The notes under the pieces are model-generated. The model searched no databases. It saw nothing but the letters and a program-made list of their open reading frames with translations, and was not told the origin of the DNA. DNA of 64,000 nucleotides from Ensifer adhaerens (GTDB lineage Bacteria > Pseudomonadota > Alphaproteobacteria > Rhizobiales > Rhizobiaceae), in NCBI RefSeq assembly GCF_013283195.1, contig NZ_JABEKT010000004.1, forward strand, positions 1 to 64,000. The letters are read 5' to 3'. A program made the position numbers and the translations under genes. Positions within the stretch are counted from its first letter, which is position 1. Each line of letters begins with the position of its first letter. Shown in pieces: positions 35,985 to 41,436 of the stretch.

Positions 35985-36770
35985 TCAATCGATGATGTGG
36001 TAGCCGCCGTCGACATAGAGAACCTGCCCGGTTATCAGCCGCGCGGCATCGTGAGCGAGAAATGCCGTAGCGGCACCAACGTCGTCGATGTCCACAAGCT
36101 CGCGGGCCGGCGACTTGACCTTGGTCTTTTCAAGCAGCGCATCGAATTCCGGGATGCCGGAGGCGGCACGGGTCGCAAGTGCGCCAGGCGAAATGGCGTG
36201 AACGCGGATGCCCTTCGGGCCAAGTTCGGCGGCGAGATAGCGGACGGCACTTTCCAGTGCCGCCTTGGCGACACCCATGATGTTGTAATTTTCCACCACG
36301 ACCTGCGAGCCGTGATAGGTCATGGTGAAGAGCGTGCCGCCATTCTTCATCAGTGGTTCGGCCAGATGCGCCATGCGGATGAACGACCAGCAGGATATGT
36401 CCATGGTCTTCAGGAAGCCCTCGCGCGGCACGTCGACGACGCGTCCGCCGAGCGTATCCTTCGGCGAAAAGGCGATGGAATGCACGACGAAGTCGAGCTC
36501 TCCCCAGCTCTTCGCGATCTCCTCGAAGACCGCTTCCATCTGACCGGGAATAGCAACGTCGAGCGGGAGGAAGATCGGCGCTTCGAGCTCGCGCGCCAAC
36601 GGCTCCACATGGGGCTTGGCCTTGTCATTGAGATAGGTGACGGCGACTTCGGCCCCGAAGGCGCGGAAGGCGCGAGCGCAACCCCACGCAATCGAGCGGT
36701 CGTTGGCGATGCCAACGATGAGGCCTTTGCGGCCTTCGAGAAGCTTGGCCTTCGCGGCGGGAATGGACAT
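35985..36770 (-). CDS. fabI: Enoyl-[acyl-carrier-protein] reductase (NADH), FabI-type
   Basis: A 261-residue SDR-fold enoyl reductase. The Gly-rich cofactor segment is VGIANDRSIAWGCARAF. The FabI catalytic pair lies in YNIMGVAKAAL (Tyr-x6-Lys), and the C terminus ends GQVLYVDGGYHI. The start follows GGAGG. It is the last gene of the leftward DUF3141-pta-ackA-fabI operon, 17 bp after ackA. This setting suggests a special role beside any housekeeping copy, for example reducing crotonyl- or enoyl-thioesters when acetyl-CoA flux changes under low oxygen. That role is inferred from context only. Confidence 0.9.
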   Translation of the reverse strand: MSIPAAKAKLLEGRKGLIVGIANDRSIAWGCARAFRAFGAEVAVTYLNDKAKPHVEPLARELEAPIFLPLDVAIPGQMEAVFEEIAKSWGELDFVVHSIAFSPKDTLGGRVVDVPREGFLKTMDISCWSFIRMAHLAEPLMKNGGTLFTMTYHGSQVVVENYNIMGVAKAALESAVRYLAAELGPKGIRVHAISPGALATRAASGIPEFDALLEKTKVKSPARELVDIDDVGAATAFLAHDAARLITGQVLYVDGGYHIID

Positions 36771-36787
36771 GGATTGCCTCCGTTGGG

Positions 36788-37972
36788 TCAAGCTGCAAGG
36801 GTTTTCAGAAGTGCCAGCGTGTGGCGCGCGATCATCAATTCCTCATCGGTCGGAAGAACGTAGAGCGCGACGCGGCTTGAAGCCGTGGAGATCAGGGTGG
36901 CTCCGCTGTCGTTGGCGACTGGGTCGAGTTCAGCTCCAAGCCACGCGAGACCTTCCGCGATCCGAGCACGGATCGGGGCGGAGTTCTCGCCGACGCCTGC
37001 GGTGAAGACGAAGGCGTCGATGCCGCCGAGCGCGGCCGCAAGCATCCCGGCGTTGAGCCCGCAGCGATAGACGAAGTGATCGATGGCGAGTTTGGCATGC
37101 GGATCGTTGCTTGCCAGGAGATCGCGCATGTCGTTCGACACCCCGGAGAGCCCCTTGAGTCCGGCGTCATGGTAGAGCAGATCCGATACCGCCTTCGCAC
37201 TCATGCCGCGCTGGAGGATCAGGTAAAGCACGACGCCCGGATCGAGCTGACCCGGCCTGGTACCCATCGGCAGGCCATCGAGCGCAGTGAAGCCCATGGT
37301 CGTCTCGACGCTGTGCCCGTCGCGCAGGGCACACATCGAAGCACCGCTGCCAAGATGAGCAACAATCACCCTGCCCCGCGCATCGCGCGGCGCTACCTCG
37401 CCGAGGTGCTCGGCTATGTACTCGTAGGAAAGGCCATGGAAGCCATAGCGCCGCACGCCCTCGTCATAGAAGCGGCGCGGCATCGCATAGCAGTTCACCT
37501 CTTCGGGGTGCCCGTGATGGAAGGCGGTATCGAAGCAGGCGACCTGCGGCACGTCGGGATTGATTGCCATTGCCTGACGAATGGGCGCGAGGTTGTTGGG
37601 CTGGTGCAAAGGCGCCAGATCCTGATAGCTCGCCAGCCGGTCAAGCACGGCCGCGTCGATCAGCACGGGCGCGGCATAGTCCGGTCCGCCATGCACCACC
37701 CGATGGCCGATTGCGCGCAAAGTGAAACCCTCAAGCGTCAGCAGCCAATCCCGCGCCGCCGCAATTGCTGCTGGCAAATCGCGAACAGCATCTGCCTCGT
37801 AGCTCCGGTCGACGAGTACGGCACCGTCGGCACTCTTCGCCTGCAAGCGCGGACGTGTGCCGATACCACCAATCTGGCCTTTGATCTGACGTATGAGGCC
37901 TGCGTCGGCAATCCCGAACAACTGAAACTTTAGACTGGACGACCCGGCATTGACGACGAGGAGTGCGTCCAT
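36788..37972 (-). CDS. ackA: Acetate kinase
   Basis: A 394-residue ASKHA-fold kinase interconverting acetyl phosphate + ADP and acetate + ATP. Family motifs: [16 protein letters not shown] at the N terminus, [66 protein letters not shown] and [13 protein letters not shown]. An ATG at 37972 and a GTG two codons upstream (37978) are both possible. The GTG overlaps the pta stop, so the two genes are translationally coupled. It is third in the DUF3141-pta-ackA-fabI operon. Confidence 0.95.
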
Positions 37973-37974
37973 GA

Positions 37975-38931
37975 TCACACCGCTGCAACTTGTGCGACCC
38001 GCCGCCGTGCCGCGTAGAGCGCGGCTACGGCACAGGAAGCGAGACGCGTACGAACCGTATCCGCCCGCGATGTCAGCACGATCGGCACGCGTGCGCCAAG
38101 CACGATGCCGGCGGCGTCGGCATGGGAAAGGAAGGTAAGGTTCTTGGCGAGCATGTTGCCGGCCTCGAGATCCGGCACCACCAGGATCTGGCCACGGCCG
38201 GCGACCGGCGAAACGATGCCCTTGATGCGGGCGGCCTCCGGGTCAATCGCGTTGTCGAAGGCGAGCGGGCCATCGAGCAGGCCGCCGGTGATCTGGCCGC
38301 GCTCTGCCATCTTGCAGAGCGCCGCTGCTTCGATCGTCGACGGTATTTTCGTCGTTACAGTCTCCACCGCCGACAGAATGGCGACACGCGGCTGGCCGAG
38401 GCCGATCGTCACCCAGAGATCGATCGCGTTCTGCACGATGTCGCGCTTGGCCTCGAGGTCCGGAAAGATGTTGATCGCGGCATCGGTGATGAACAACGTC
38501 TCGGCATGGCCAGGCACATCCATGATGAAGACGTGGCTGATCCTTCGGTCGGTCCTGAGCCCGGTTGCGGAGGCCGCAACTTCCTTCATCAGCTCGTCCG
38601 TGTGCAGGCTCCCCTTCATCAGGAGCTCGCCGCAGCCCTCTCGGATCATTGCTACGGCCTTGGCGGCGGCCGCATGGCTGTGCGGCACATCGACGATCTC
38701 GCGCCCGGCGAGGTCGAGGCCGTGCTCCGCGGCGACAGAGCGGATCTTCGCTTCCGGCCCGACGAGAACGGGCGCGATCAGGCCCATGTGGGAAGCTTCC
38801 AACGCACCGCGCAACGAAGTCTCGTCGCAAGGATGCGCCACGATCGTGACAGCCGGCGTTTCGTCCCGCGCGGCTGCGATCAGGCGGTCGTATTTGGACA
38901 GTTCAGGCGTCGGTGTGCTTGCTTCGGACAC
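37975..38931 (-). CDS. pta: Phosphate acetyl/butyryltransferase (short form)
   Basis: A 318-residue PTA_PTB-domain enzyme making acyl phosphate from acyl-CoA and phosphate. It lacks the N-terminal regulatory domains of long enterobacterial Pta. Motifs: [45 protein letters not shown] and [20 protein letters not shown], which are typical of the short Pta/Ptb group, so acyl chains longer than acetyl are possible. It starts 20 bp after the DUF3141 gene and overlaps the possible ackA GTG start. With AckA it can recover ATP from acetyl-CoA or activate acetate. Confidence 0.92.
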
Positions 38932-38951
38932 GTCGGAAACTCCCTCGTCGA

Positions 38952-41156
38952 TCAGGATGCCTTGCGATTGCGAACGGTCTTGCCGGCAGTGATCGAGACC
39001 GGTGGTTCGCCGCCGAGGCGAAAGAGCGTCGCCACCCGTTGCAGCCGCTCGGCGGCGACGCCCGTCACCGCACCGGACGCTTCGAGGACTTCCCGCAGGG
39101 CGGCAAAAGCCGATCGCCGCTCCTCCATCGCCTCCGGCAACAATGCCGGAAGGGCCGCAAGCGCGGCATCTTCGTCGATCAGCAGCATGAAGTATTGCTC
39201 CCGCATCACCGCCTTGAACGCGGCAAGATCCAATTGCCGCGTTTCCGGACGAGCCTGCCGCAGCCGGCGCACAGCCTCGAATCCGCGCTCGTCGGCGCCG
39301 CCGCGCGCCATGCCGACGAAAGTCAGTGCTCTGGCGAGACCTTCACAGGTCCCGCCCTGCTCCATTCGGGATCGAAGTTCGCCGATCCGCGCCTCGACGA
39401 GTTCCTGATGCAGAAGGCTTTTTGCTGCCTTGCGCGGTTTCCCGGCGCGCGCATCGATGCCGAGCGCCGCCTGCAGGGTCGGAGAGCCGTAAATGGCGTG
39501 AAAGCTCTGTTCCGAAAGATACTCGGCCGTCCGCCGCCATCCCTCGAACCCGTCGACGATCTGTTGAGACAAGGCCTCCTGCCATGCGACGAAAGGGTTC
39601 TCCGGGGCTACCGGCTCGCGGGTTTCACGGACCTGCTCTGCAAGAGCCCTCGCCCAATCCATGAAGGGATTGTCAGGCCCGAACAGCGCATATTGCAGGC
39701 GCAGCGGATGCAGATTCCGCATCGCCGCGGCCACCGACGGCGTCACCGCCGCCTTGACTGCTGGCTGCAGGTAGGTGCGGTAGAGCGCGAGATTGACTTC
39801 CGAGAGCTTCGCCGCGGTGGCGAAACGGCGTTCATCCTCGGCGTCGTTGCCACCAAGCGCGCGGATATCGTCGAGCGTGCGTGGTTCGCAGCGCATCAGC
39901 CATTCGCCGGAAGCGAACTCCCTGCCTTCGGCGACCTCTCCTGCCGGTGTCAGCACGGCTTCGTACAACCCAGGGGGCAACACATCGATCAGGTCGATGT
40001 TGGAAGCGAATTCGTCGTGCTCCTTGCGCGCAACACCGGCCGACACGAAGATGCCGAGATGCCCGATCGTCTCATGGACGGTGTAGACGATGGTCTGGCC
40101 ATAGGCGCGGATCTCGTCGACGCTGTCATAGAGATCGAGGATCCAGTCGAGTGCCTGCTGCGGCGGCGTAATGTTGTCGCCCTTCGAGCAGAAGACCACG
40201 ATTGGAGAATTTACGTTGCGCAGATCGATAGCGGTTCCATCTGATGTCCGGATCTCGCCGGCCGCAAGCTTGTTGCCGACAAAGAGTTCATCGACGATGA
40301 ACTGCATTTCCTCAGCGTTCAGCGTCACATGGCCGCCCCACCAGCGCTCAAAGCCGAGATAGCGCGCCGCTTCGGTATCGATCTTCGAATAGAGATTGTA
40401 CTGCTTGGTCCAGAGCGTGTTGGCCGGGTTCTGGTTTTCGAAGTTTTGCACCAGCCAGGCGCCATCGAAGATACCGGCGCCGAGATCGCCGGTCAGCGCC
40501 GTCAGCCAGCTGCCGCCGAGAAGTCCGCCGGAATAGCGCATCGGGTTCTGCCCCTTCACGCCGGCCCAATAGGAAAGCGGCGCGCCGGCGATAATGATCG
40601 GGCCGAACAGCTCTGGTCTGAGCGCGGCGACGATCATCACGGCCCACCCGGCCTGGCAATTGCCGATCACGCAGGGCTTGCCGTCCGCAGACGGATGGCG
40701 CGCAATGACGGTTTCGAGAAAGTTCGCTTCGGCAAGAGCAATATCCTCAATGGTCTGACCGGGCACGGGATCGGGAAGAAAGCCGATGAAATAGCAGGGA
40801 TGGCCCGCCTTCAGCGCCACGCCGATTTCGCTATCGGCCTTGAAGCCGCCAATTCCGGGACCGTGGCCGGCACGGGGATCAACCACGACAAAAGGCCGTT
40901 TCGACAGGTCAACCGCCACACCTTCGGGCGGAACGATCTTGACCAGTGCATAGTTCACCGGCCGCGCGAGCGTGCGCCCGTCATGAATGAGTTCGACCTC
41001 GAATTCCAGCACGTTTGGAGCGGTTTGCGTGCGGTGTTCCTCGTATTGCGCGCCGCGCTCACGCATGACGTCGAGAAACAGCACCGAACGCTGCCACGCG
41101 TCCAACGAATAGGCGTAAGCGTCAGCAAATGTCGGAATGCTGGTTGGCTTGGGCAT
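38952..41156 (-). CDS. DUF3141 protein: PHA-synthase-like alpha/beta hydrolase
   Basis: A 734-residue cytoplasmic protein. Residues about 60-400 form an alpha/beta-hydrolase core with PHA-synthase features. The lipase-like box GNCQAG (165-170) puts a Cys, not a Ser, at the nucleophile (Cys167). Asp327 (CSKGDNITPP) and His366 (ETIGHLGIFVS) complete a PhaC-type Cys-Asp-His triad with spacing close to that of PhaC. Residues 400-734 are a helical extension absent from PhaC. The start at 41156 has GAGGAG 8 bp upstream. First gene of the operon with pta, ackA and fabI, read from an FNR-type promoter. An acyl-CoA polymerase, thioesterase or acyltransferase role is possible; no activity is known to me. 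Confidence 0.85.
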   Translation of the reverse strand: MPKPTSIPTFADAYAYSLDAWQRSVLFLDVMRERGAQYEEHRTQTAPNVLEFEVELIHDGRTLARPVNYALVKIVPPEGVAVDLSKRPFVVVDPRAGHGPGIGGFKADSEIGVALKAGHPCYFIGFLPDPVPGQTIEDIALAEANFLETVIARHPSADGKPCVIGNCQAGWAVMIVAALRPELFGPIIIAGAPLSYWAGVKGQNPMRYSGGLLGGSWLTALTGDLGAGIFDGAWLVQNFENQNPANTLWTKQYNLYSKIDTEAARYLGFERWWGGHVTLNAEEMQFIVDELFVGNKLAAGEIRTSDGTAIDLRNVNSPIVVFCSKGDNITPPQQALDWILDLYDSVDEIRAYGQTIVYTVHETIGHLGIFVSAGVARKEHDEFASNIDLIDVLPPGLYEAVLTPAGEVAEGREFASGEWLMRCEPRTLDDIRALGGNDAEDERRFATAAKLSEVNLALYRTYLQPAVKAAVTPSVAAAMRNLHPLRLQYALFGPDNPFMDWARALAEQVRETREPVAPENPFVAWQEALSQQIVDGFEGWRRTAEYLSEQSFHAIYGSPTLQAALGIDARAGKPRKAAKSLLHQELVEARIGELRSRMEQGGTCEGLARALTFVGMARGGADERGFEAVRRLRQARPETRQLDLAAFKAVMREQYFMLLIDEDAALAALPALLPEAMEERRSAFAALREVLEASGAVTGVAAERLQRVATLFRLGGEPPVSITAGKTVRNRKAS

Positions 41157-41202: not shown

Positions 41203-41244
41203 GCTATAGGGCAGTGCAAGTGGTCAAGTGTTGATTTACGTCAA
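41203..41244 (-). promoter_or_regulatory. Predicted FNR/FixK class II promoter of the DUF3141-pta-ackA-fabI operon
   Basis: TTGATTTACGTCAA at 41231-41244 matches the FNR/FixK anaerobox TTGAY-N4-RTCAA in every conserved position. On the operon strand a TATAGC -10 hexamer lies at 41208-41203. The box centre (41237.5) is 32.0 bp from the -10 centre, which puts the box at exactly -41.5 from the predicted start near 41196, the classical activator position. The leader would be about 40 nt. Confidence 0.75.
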
Positions 41245-41436
41245 AAACGACATGCGTAGCGCGACCCGAAACGCCTCATCGGGGCCATAGGAATATATCT
41301 GCGGAGTGTTGCCGCGAATTCTCACCGTTGCGATATGCTAGGCTCGCACCCGGTCGACGGCGTCCACTTCTCACCTGTAGTCTCGTCTTCTTCGCACTGC
41401 AGCATCGTACAGAAACATGCACTCCACAAGACAACC

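Follow-up and report, generated by a model that had tools for sequence, protein, structure and literature searches.

We analysed a 64,000-nucleotide stretch of the 7.07 Mb genome of Ensifer adhaerens (positions 1 to 64,000 of contig NZ_JABEKT010000004.1, RefSeq assembly GCF_013283195.1; hereafter, the window). It contains a four-gene operon that begins with a protein of domain of unknown function 3141 (DUF3141) and continues with a phosphotransacylase, an acetokinase and an enoyl reductase (FabI). The DUF3141 protein has the catalytic triad and the predicted fold of polyhydroxyalkanoate (PHA) synthases as well as a probable TerB-like domain, and a conserved FNR/FixK-type box lies upstream of its gene. 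The identity and order of the genes and the conservation of the triad and of the box are established from the sequence. We tentatively favor the view that this is a low-oxygen operon in which the DUF3141 protein, a cysteine acyltransferase of the PhaC fold, would load or unload a pool of acyl-coenzyme A (acyl-CoA), while the phosphotransacylase and the acetokinase would make ATP and FabI would re-oxidize NAD(P)H.

According to the listing of open reading frames, the four genes are on the minus strand, in the order DUF3141, phosphotransacylase, acetokinase, fabI. The first gene (38952..41156) encodes a protein of 734 amino acids, with a PhaC-fold catalytic domain and a helical C-terminal part; the phosphotransacylase (37975..38931) and the acetate/propionate-family kinase (36788..37978) have 318 and 396 amino acids; and the FabI-family reductase is at 35985..36791. 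The stop of the DUF3141 gene at 38952 and the start of the next gene at 38931 are separated by 20 bp, and there are overlaps of 4 bp between the transferase and acetokinase genes and between the acetokinase gene and fabI. (The listing starts fabI with the TTG at 36791; counting by hand shows an in-frame ATG at 36770.) These coordinates confirm the arrangement that was described in an earlier interpretation of the DNA letters (the sequence-only reading). Pfam assigns the products to DUF3141 (PF11339; 937.6 bits against a gathering cut-off of 29.7, covering profile positions 1-581 of 582), PTA_PTB, Acetate_kinase, and the FabI-type short-chain dehydrogenases/reductases.

The DUF3141 protein resembles PHA synthases

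Numbered from the ATG at 41156, the catalytic residues are Cys167 in the box GNCQAG (codon at 40656..40658, minus strand), Asp327 (40176..40178, minus strand), and His366 in GHLGIFVS (40059..40061, minus strand), which is exactly the numbering in the sequence-only reading. The triad was invariant in an initial set of 12 proteins (12/12) and then in 86/86 proteins, namely the window's protein, those from 80 named loci, and those from 5 plasmid loci. The 80 named loci are the best 80 of at least 564 confirmed relatives and are biased towards close ones. Also, one of the two search patterns ([IV]GHLGIFVS) contained the histidine, so only the conservation of the cysteine and the aspartate is free of that bias.

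In a predicted full-length model (mean pLDDT, a per-residue confidence score, of 83.6, with 12 sequences in the alignment), the triad is placed in an alpha/beta-hydrolase fold, as in PHA synthases. The best matches to this model in the PDB are PHA synthases: PhaC from Aeromonas caviae (9knk, E = 6.9e-8, 15% identity), and a similar match to the enzyme from C. necator (5t6o, E = 8.6e-8, 16% identity). In profile-profile comparisons, the probabilities were 99.4% for a group of relatives of about 400 amino acids, 98.9% for class III PhaC, and 96.1% for class I PhaC. With PHA synthases as the top structural matches and among the strong profile matches, and with the triad conserved, the earlier description of a PhaC-like cysteine triad is supported, and the protein probably works with cysteine chemistry similar to that of PHA synthase. 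We did not classify it as a PHA synthase because PhaC_N was not found in it (Pfam gives DUF3141 only) and because it scores just 22.7 bits against the NCBIfam PHA synthase model TIGR01836, whose cut-off is 365.3; no other class model was listed.

We also considered the thiolytic depolymerase PhaZ as the nearest family and rejected it, as only a C-terminal stretch matched, with a probability of 1.2%. The PhaZ comparison set was crude (several of the 12 chosen open reading frames are perhaps in the wrong frame), so this result leaves room for a depolymerase role for DUF3141.

A probable TerB-like domain

The sequence-only reading attributed about 330 additional helical residues to the protein. 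Indeed, the predicted models show mainly helices in the C-terminal 300 or so residues. Pfam gives nothing above cut-off in this part. By eye, the last 115 residues or so look TerB-like. A Pfam search of four C-terminal pieces, with E values of up to 10, listed no match to TerB (PF05099). However, when we used hhalign to compare the DUF3141 protein to a TerB profile derived from related genomes, the profile aligned end-to-end with residues ~604-717 (39006..39347, minus strand), with a probability of 77% (73% in a repeat). The score was 33.8, as compared to 16.0 for the best of 60 column shuffles, 11.2 for the reversed control, and 8-17 for stretches without the domain; residues 500-640, which overlap the domain, scored 23.5. 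On their own, small subsets of TerB sequences gave probabilities of only 4-27%.

We also compared a predicted model of residues 400-734 (59 sequences, pLDDT = 84.5, predicted template modeling score or pTM = 0.51) to known structures with Foldseek. The top two hits were both chains of 2h5n (probabilities of 0.92 and 0.85), with weak E values of 0.83 and 1.5. The TerB profile itself finds 2h5n (E = 3e-5) and the TerB structure 2jxu (E = 8e-5) in the PDB, but a designed knot protein ranks higher than either of these, and many calmodulins rank lower. The two lines of evidence are each moderate, and they agree on a probable TerB-like domain at residues ~604-717. About 140 helical residues with no domain assignment separate it from the catalytic domain; residues ~487-623 had weak matches at best, to Legionella Dot/LnaB chains (E = 0.02-0.1).

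A conserved FNR/FixK box

The only strict match to the FNR/FixK pattern (TTGAY-N4-RTCAA) in the whole window is TTGACGTAAATCAA (41231..41244, minus strand), a box of the FNR/FixK/Anr type. It starts 88 bp before the ATG of the DUF3141 gene, which leaves 74 bp between the box and the ATG. A lone box in the window proves little, as 14 of 100 shuffled windows also contained at least one, so the case for the box rests on its conservation. Within the genus, 14 of 15 DUF3141 orthologs have it. When we aligned 21 upstream stretches (two of which repeat others), the box was in the same column in 18 of them; the exceptions were S. meliloti and locus L124, with one mismatch each, and locus L120, whose box lies only further upstream.

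The box is also present well beyond the genus. In 27 of the 80 named loci, it lies no more than 400 bp from the first in-frame ATG, while 0.07 would be expected, and in 200 rounds of dinucleotide shuffling of these loci we never saw more than 2 boxes. Counting from the first aligned residue instead, we found it in 32/80 loci and in 0/80 of the reversed sequences. Furthermore, the box tracks the gene content of the locus: between -400 and +20, 22 of the 38 loci that have all four genes carry it, as do 6 of 16 with a partial set and just 1 of 26 with DUF3141 alone. The low-oxygen setting proposed in the sequence-only reading is supported by this pattern of conservation, and the induction reported for NGR234 nodules (see below) agrees with it.

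Across the genome, 38 sites match the FNR/FixK pattern, as compared to 4 for the reversed pattern, and one of the sites is about 300 bp before ccoN. Five of the 38 sites are identical copies of a palindrome, TTGACAGCTGTCAA, within about 7 kb (G000:C12:225741-232549); these may be operators for a different regulator and not FNR boxes. A second copy of DUF3141, only 37% identical and with no FNR box, is present in one genome of the genus (L127, G296:C5:15850-17484).

The partner enzymes

The second gene had been described as encoding a short transferase of the Pta/Ptb type. By bit scores, it is nearer to phosphate butyryltransferase (Ptb) than to phosphate acetyltransferase (Pta). Among NCBIfam models, its best match is NF008852 (nevertheless named phosphate acetyltransferase) with 526 bits, followed by three butyryltransferase models with 264-309 bits, and the pta model TIGR00651 with 67 bits; in the PDB, its best match is the phosphate butyryltransferase 7vg9 with 218 bits, while Pta chains score 61-67. 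It does fall under the cut-off for the Ptb equivalog TIGR02706 (298.4 vs. 410.5); the model whose cut-off it passes is NF008852. A canonical Pta is encoded elsewhere in the genome (TIGR00651, 350 bits).

The kinase matches TIGR00016 with 348 bits (the cut-off is 293.4) and is the sole acetokinase of the genome, which has no second match to PF00871. The reductase matches NF005717 (PRK07533) with 444 bits, above the cut-off of 337. It is 47-48% identical to the two other FabI proteins of the genome, which fit PRK08159 and PRK06505, so by these profile matches it is a third FabI subfamily.

Conservation and neighboring genes

The sequence-only reading called for a survey of how often the four genes co-occur. 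We found all four within 7 kb on one strand in 38 of the 80 named loci, and in 34 of these the order is the same as in the window. Overall, DUF3141 has at least one of the partners nearby in 54/80 loci. In 8 of the 80 loci, the gene order is different: DUF-PTA-FABI-ACK (3 loci), PTA-DUF-FABI (2), and PTA-ACK-DUF, ACK-FABI-DUF-PTA, and DUF-FABI-PTA (1 each). These rearrangements suggest that function, in addition to descent, keeps the genes together. The survey thus points to a conserved co-directional operon, which is present in Alphaproteobacteria and Betaproteobacteria as well as in some other Proteobacteria. A nearly full-length DUF3141 is found in 12 of 289 evenly drawn Alphaproteobacteria (counting the window's genome) and in 15 of 16 genomes of the genus. 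The nearest named relatives at this locus, among the matches listed, are Ensifer sp. LC11 and E. sesbaniae, with 89% and 87% identity of DUF3141, respectively; this comparison may not include very near records.

We noticed several other genes near the operon. A small charged protein of about 150 amino acids, which looks like a coiled coil, is near DUF3141 in 14/80 loci (for example, L143:11336-11812, L142:14232-14687, and L060:7205-7681); it has no Pfam match above cut-off. In several rhizobia (L140, L034, L036, L039, and L062), phosphoketolase genes (4 of the 80 named loci, as well as L140) and genes with CBS domains are near the operon; the phosphoketolase is a possible further source of acetyl phosphate. 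The transferases of Caballeronia and Azospirillum carry the annotation bifunctional enoyl-CoA hydratase/phosphate acetyltransferase (L144:12254-13615 and L143:11825-12784), while for the Caballeronia protein Pfam finds PTA_PTB only. The records from these two genera also have a gene for polyphosphate kinase 2 or for ADP-polyphosphate phosphotransferase within about 10 kb.

Proposed role of the operon and alternatives

In the low-oxygen reading, a fall in oxygen would activate a regulator of the FixK/FNR type, and the four genes, the Ensifer version of orf-pta-ack-fabI, would then be transcribed. The DUF3141 protein would transfer acyl groups (probably 3-hydroxyacyl) to or from CoA, and its acceptor might be a polyester or an oligomer, or else another thiol. 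With the Ptb-type transferase and the sole acetokinase, short acyl-CoA would be converted to acyl phosphate and then to ATP and a carboxylate, and the third FabI would spend NAD(P)H on enoyl thioesters. Given this formation of ATP and use of NAD(P)H, the four enzymes would conserve energy and provide an outlet for reducing power while respiration is restricted. The reactions of the transferase, the kinase, and FabI are those expected from their families; what we infer is the reaction of DUF3141 (with its direction and its acceptor), the identity of the regulator, and a single path that joins all four steps.

Several observations weigh against this reading. First, the kinase is acetate-like and not butyrate-like (348 bits for TIGR00016 vs. 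38-65 for the butyrate kinase models), so acetate or propionate fits better than longer acyl groups. Second, DUF3141 has no partner nearby in 26/80 loci, although in 7 of these the contig ends less than 3 kb downstream. Third, 53/80 loci have no box within 400 bp of the ATG. Of the 27 that do, 16 are from Bradyrhizobium (11) or Achromobacter (5), and the box is absent from all of the Duganella loci (0/6) and all of the Bordetella loci (0/4); because the taxa are clustered in this way, there are fewer than 27 independent events. Fourth, S. meliloti, where the operon is reported to be controlled by PhoB, has the box only with a mismatch. Finally, the literature that we found, as far as its text was available, describes no activity for any DUF3141 protein.

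An alternative, which we consider unlikely, is that this is an operon for acetate and acetyl phosphate metabolism: Pta and Ack would do the physiological work (in acetate overflow, ATP formation, the supply of acetyl phosphate to response regulators, or phosphate stress), and DUF3141 and FabI would be accessory or passengers. This would fit with the location of the genome's only acetokinase and with the S. meliloti operon, which is cited as being induced by phosphate starvation through PhoB (PMC8231600). Because of that report, we searched for PHO boxes (CTGTCA-N5-CTGTCA). Allowing up to 3 mismatches, there are none upstream of the operon, and the window as a whole has 37 matches while 37.06 are expected; the best PHO-like site upstream has 5 mismatches of 12. 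The separate canonical Pta also argues against this explanation, as do the 5 of 80 loci in which DUF3141 and FabI occur together without Pta or Ack (in one of these, L105, the contig ends 618 bp past DUF3141).

It seems still less likely that DUF3141 is a paralog of polyhydroxybutyrate (PHB) synthase that tunes storage in the way proposed for B. diazoefficiens PhaC2, either by making a special short polymer or by altering the canonical PhaC. The PhaC fold and the triad would fit, and so would the grouping of DUF3141 with the PHA synthase 5hz2 (PMC11878206) and the DUF3141-domain protein in a phaCAB cluster of Pseudomonas umsongensis (PMC8601165), to the extent that these sources cover them. 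A canonical PhaC is present in all 12 of the Alphaproteobacteria with a full-length DUF3141, including the window's genome, and in genome G236 the two matches are about 2.5 kb apart. However, PhaC_N is also present in 38 of 50 comparison genomes without a full-length DUF3141, and because this list was chosen rather than drawn at random, the co-occurrence is uninformative. The lack of PhaC_N and the low PHA synthase score argue against a paralog. As for the heterodimer model for PhaC2, we rejected it as not transferable: according to the relevant part of PMC4029623, the PhaC2 gene, phbC5 (bll6073), has a striking similarity to PhbC2 and PhbC3.

We give a similarly low rating to a role in the envelope, with DUF3141 acylating a lipid or a protein, the extra FabI supplying saturated chains when oxygen or phosphate is low, and the TerB-like domain providing a tie to membrane stress: the dedicated FabI subfamily, the TerB-like domain, and the five loci with DUF3141 and FabI alone would fit, but this accounts for neither Ptb nor Ack, and there is no lipid acyltransferase family among the Pfam and NCBIfam matches.

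Lastly, the low-oxygen reading has a more specific form, which we regard as a long shot, in which the operon would carry out a polyester fermentation. DUF3141, acting as a CoA-dependent (thiolytic) depolymerase, would release 3-hydroxyacyl-CoA from PHB; a hydratase would form enoyl-CoA, which FabI would reduce with NADH; Ptb and Ack would yield ATP; and the TerB-like domain would place the enzyme on the granule or the membrane or act as a sensor there. If so, stored PHB would be both an electron sink and a source of ATP in oxygen-poor nodules and soils.

Whichever explanation is correct, the operon begins with an enzyme family that is still of unknown function in Pfam, and two of the partner genes are, according to published data, steeply induced in NGR234 bacteroids: in nodules, AckA and Pta (NGR_b13640 and NGR_b13630) are reported to be up 118-228-fold (PMC3732241, in the portion that we cite). 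We take these to be the genes of this operon because pNGR234b has a single such pta location, which is inside it. Establishing the reaction of DUF3141 would reveal the connections between storage polymers, acyl-CoA, and ATP in rhizobia and soil bacteria that are short of oxygen, and the probable TerB-like domain and the conserved box are direct handles for tests.

Comparison with known systems

The sequence-only reading considered the module to be undescribed, which is not the case. In S. meliloti, ORF-pta-ack-fabI (ORF is short for open reading frame) is cited as co-transcribed and as up in phosphate starvation via the phoB regulon (Summers et al. 1999, cited in PMC8231600). The same four genes, in the same order, are found on pNGR234b and, as annotated, on the S. 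meliloti plasmid pSymA. DUF3141 from pSymA is 76% identical to the window's protein and the other three products are 82-89% identical; this copy is presumably the published operon. The systems differ upstream: PhoB control was published for S. meliloti, while the window has a perfect FNR/FixK box and no recognizable PHO box. A second upstream block resembling CGACAAATCGCCGTAACA is conserved in relatives within the genus, including S. meliloti (TGTCAAACCGCCGTAACA), several of which have it at -184 to -214 relative to the start, and is degenerate in the window (at about 41306-41324); it is possibly two PhoB half-sites at 11-bp spacing. The intact pSymA operon (L140) is also flanked by an annotated short DUF3141 gene and by a piece that is 44% identical to residues 3-97 (L140:7496-7792 and L140:15994-16302), which are perhaps remnants of a duplication. 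From gene order, blr3456 would be another DUF3141 gene.

Similar clusters are described, in the sections we draw on, as phaC-pta-ack-fabI in Burkholderia sensu lato (PMC8231600) and as phaC2 in an operon with pta-ackA in Herbaspirillum (PMC8222739). As in the window, a PhaC-like gene is beside pta, ackA, and often fabI; unlike in the window, a fused phaJ-pta gene and phaB occur. The PhaC of these clusters need not be a DUF3141 protein, as the identity between those authors' gene product and the S. meliloti ORF is given as only 2-24% (PMC8231600, PMC8222739). As a lead only, a putative phosphate acetyl/butyryl transferase (M0298) and phbB (M0296) are among the altered proteins reported for the lxa locus of Burkholderia cenocepacia (PMC6127331, in part). 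A literature search on the wider idea returned no title about the orf-pta-ack-fabI operon among its matches.

The kinship of DUF3141 with PHA synthase is also in print, along with the Cys-Asp-His triad: PMC11878206 places DUF3141 and 5hz2 in one cluster and, in the text seen, mentions an N-terminal PhaC_N in many of its members, which the window's protein lacks. Elsewhere, a DUF3141 protein is listed as phaZ (PMC8050969). The relevant passages of PMC11878206, PMC8601165, and PMC8050969 report neither a test of function nor a TerB domain for DUF3141. As compared to the PHA synthases of classes I and III, the window's protein shares the fold and the triad, but it is below the family cut-offs, has the box GNCQAG and no PhaC_N, and has an extra C-terminal part with the probable TerB-like domain. 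As compared to TerB itself (PF05099), that domain matches the profile end-to-end, and its top fold match (2h5n) is TerB-like by profile, but Pfam misses it and it is fused to an enzyme with a hydrolase fold. Thus, to an operon that has been cited since 1999, our analysis adds a conserved low-oxygen box, a C-terminal domain that is probably TerB-like, and the finding that the transferase is of the Ptb type.

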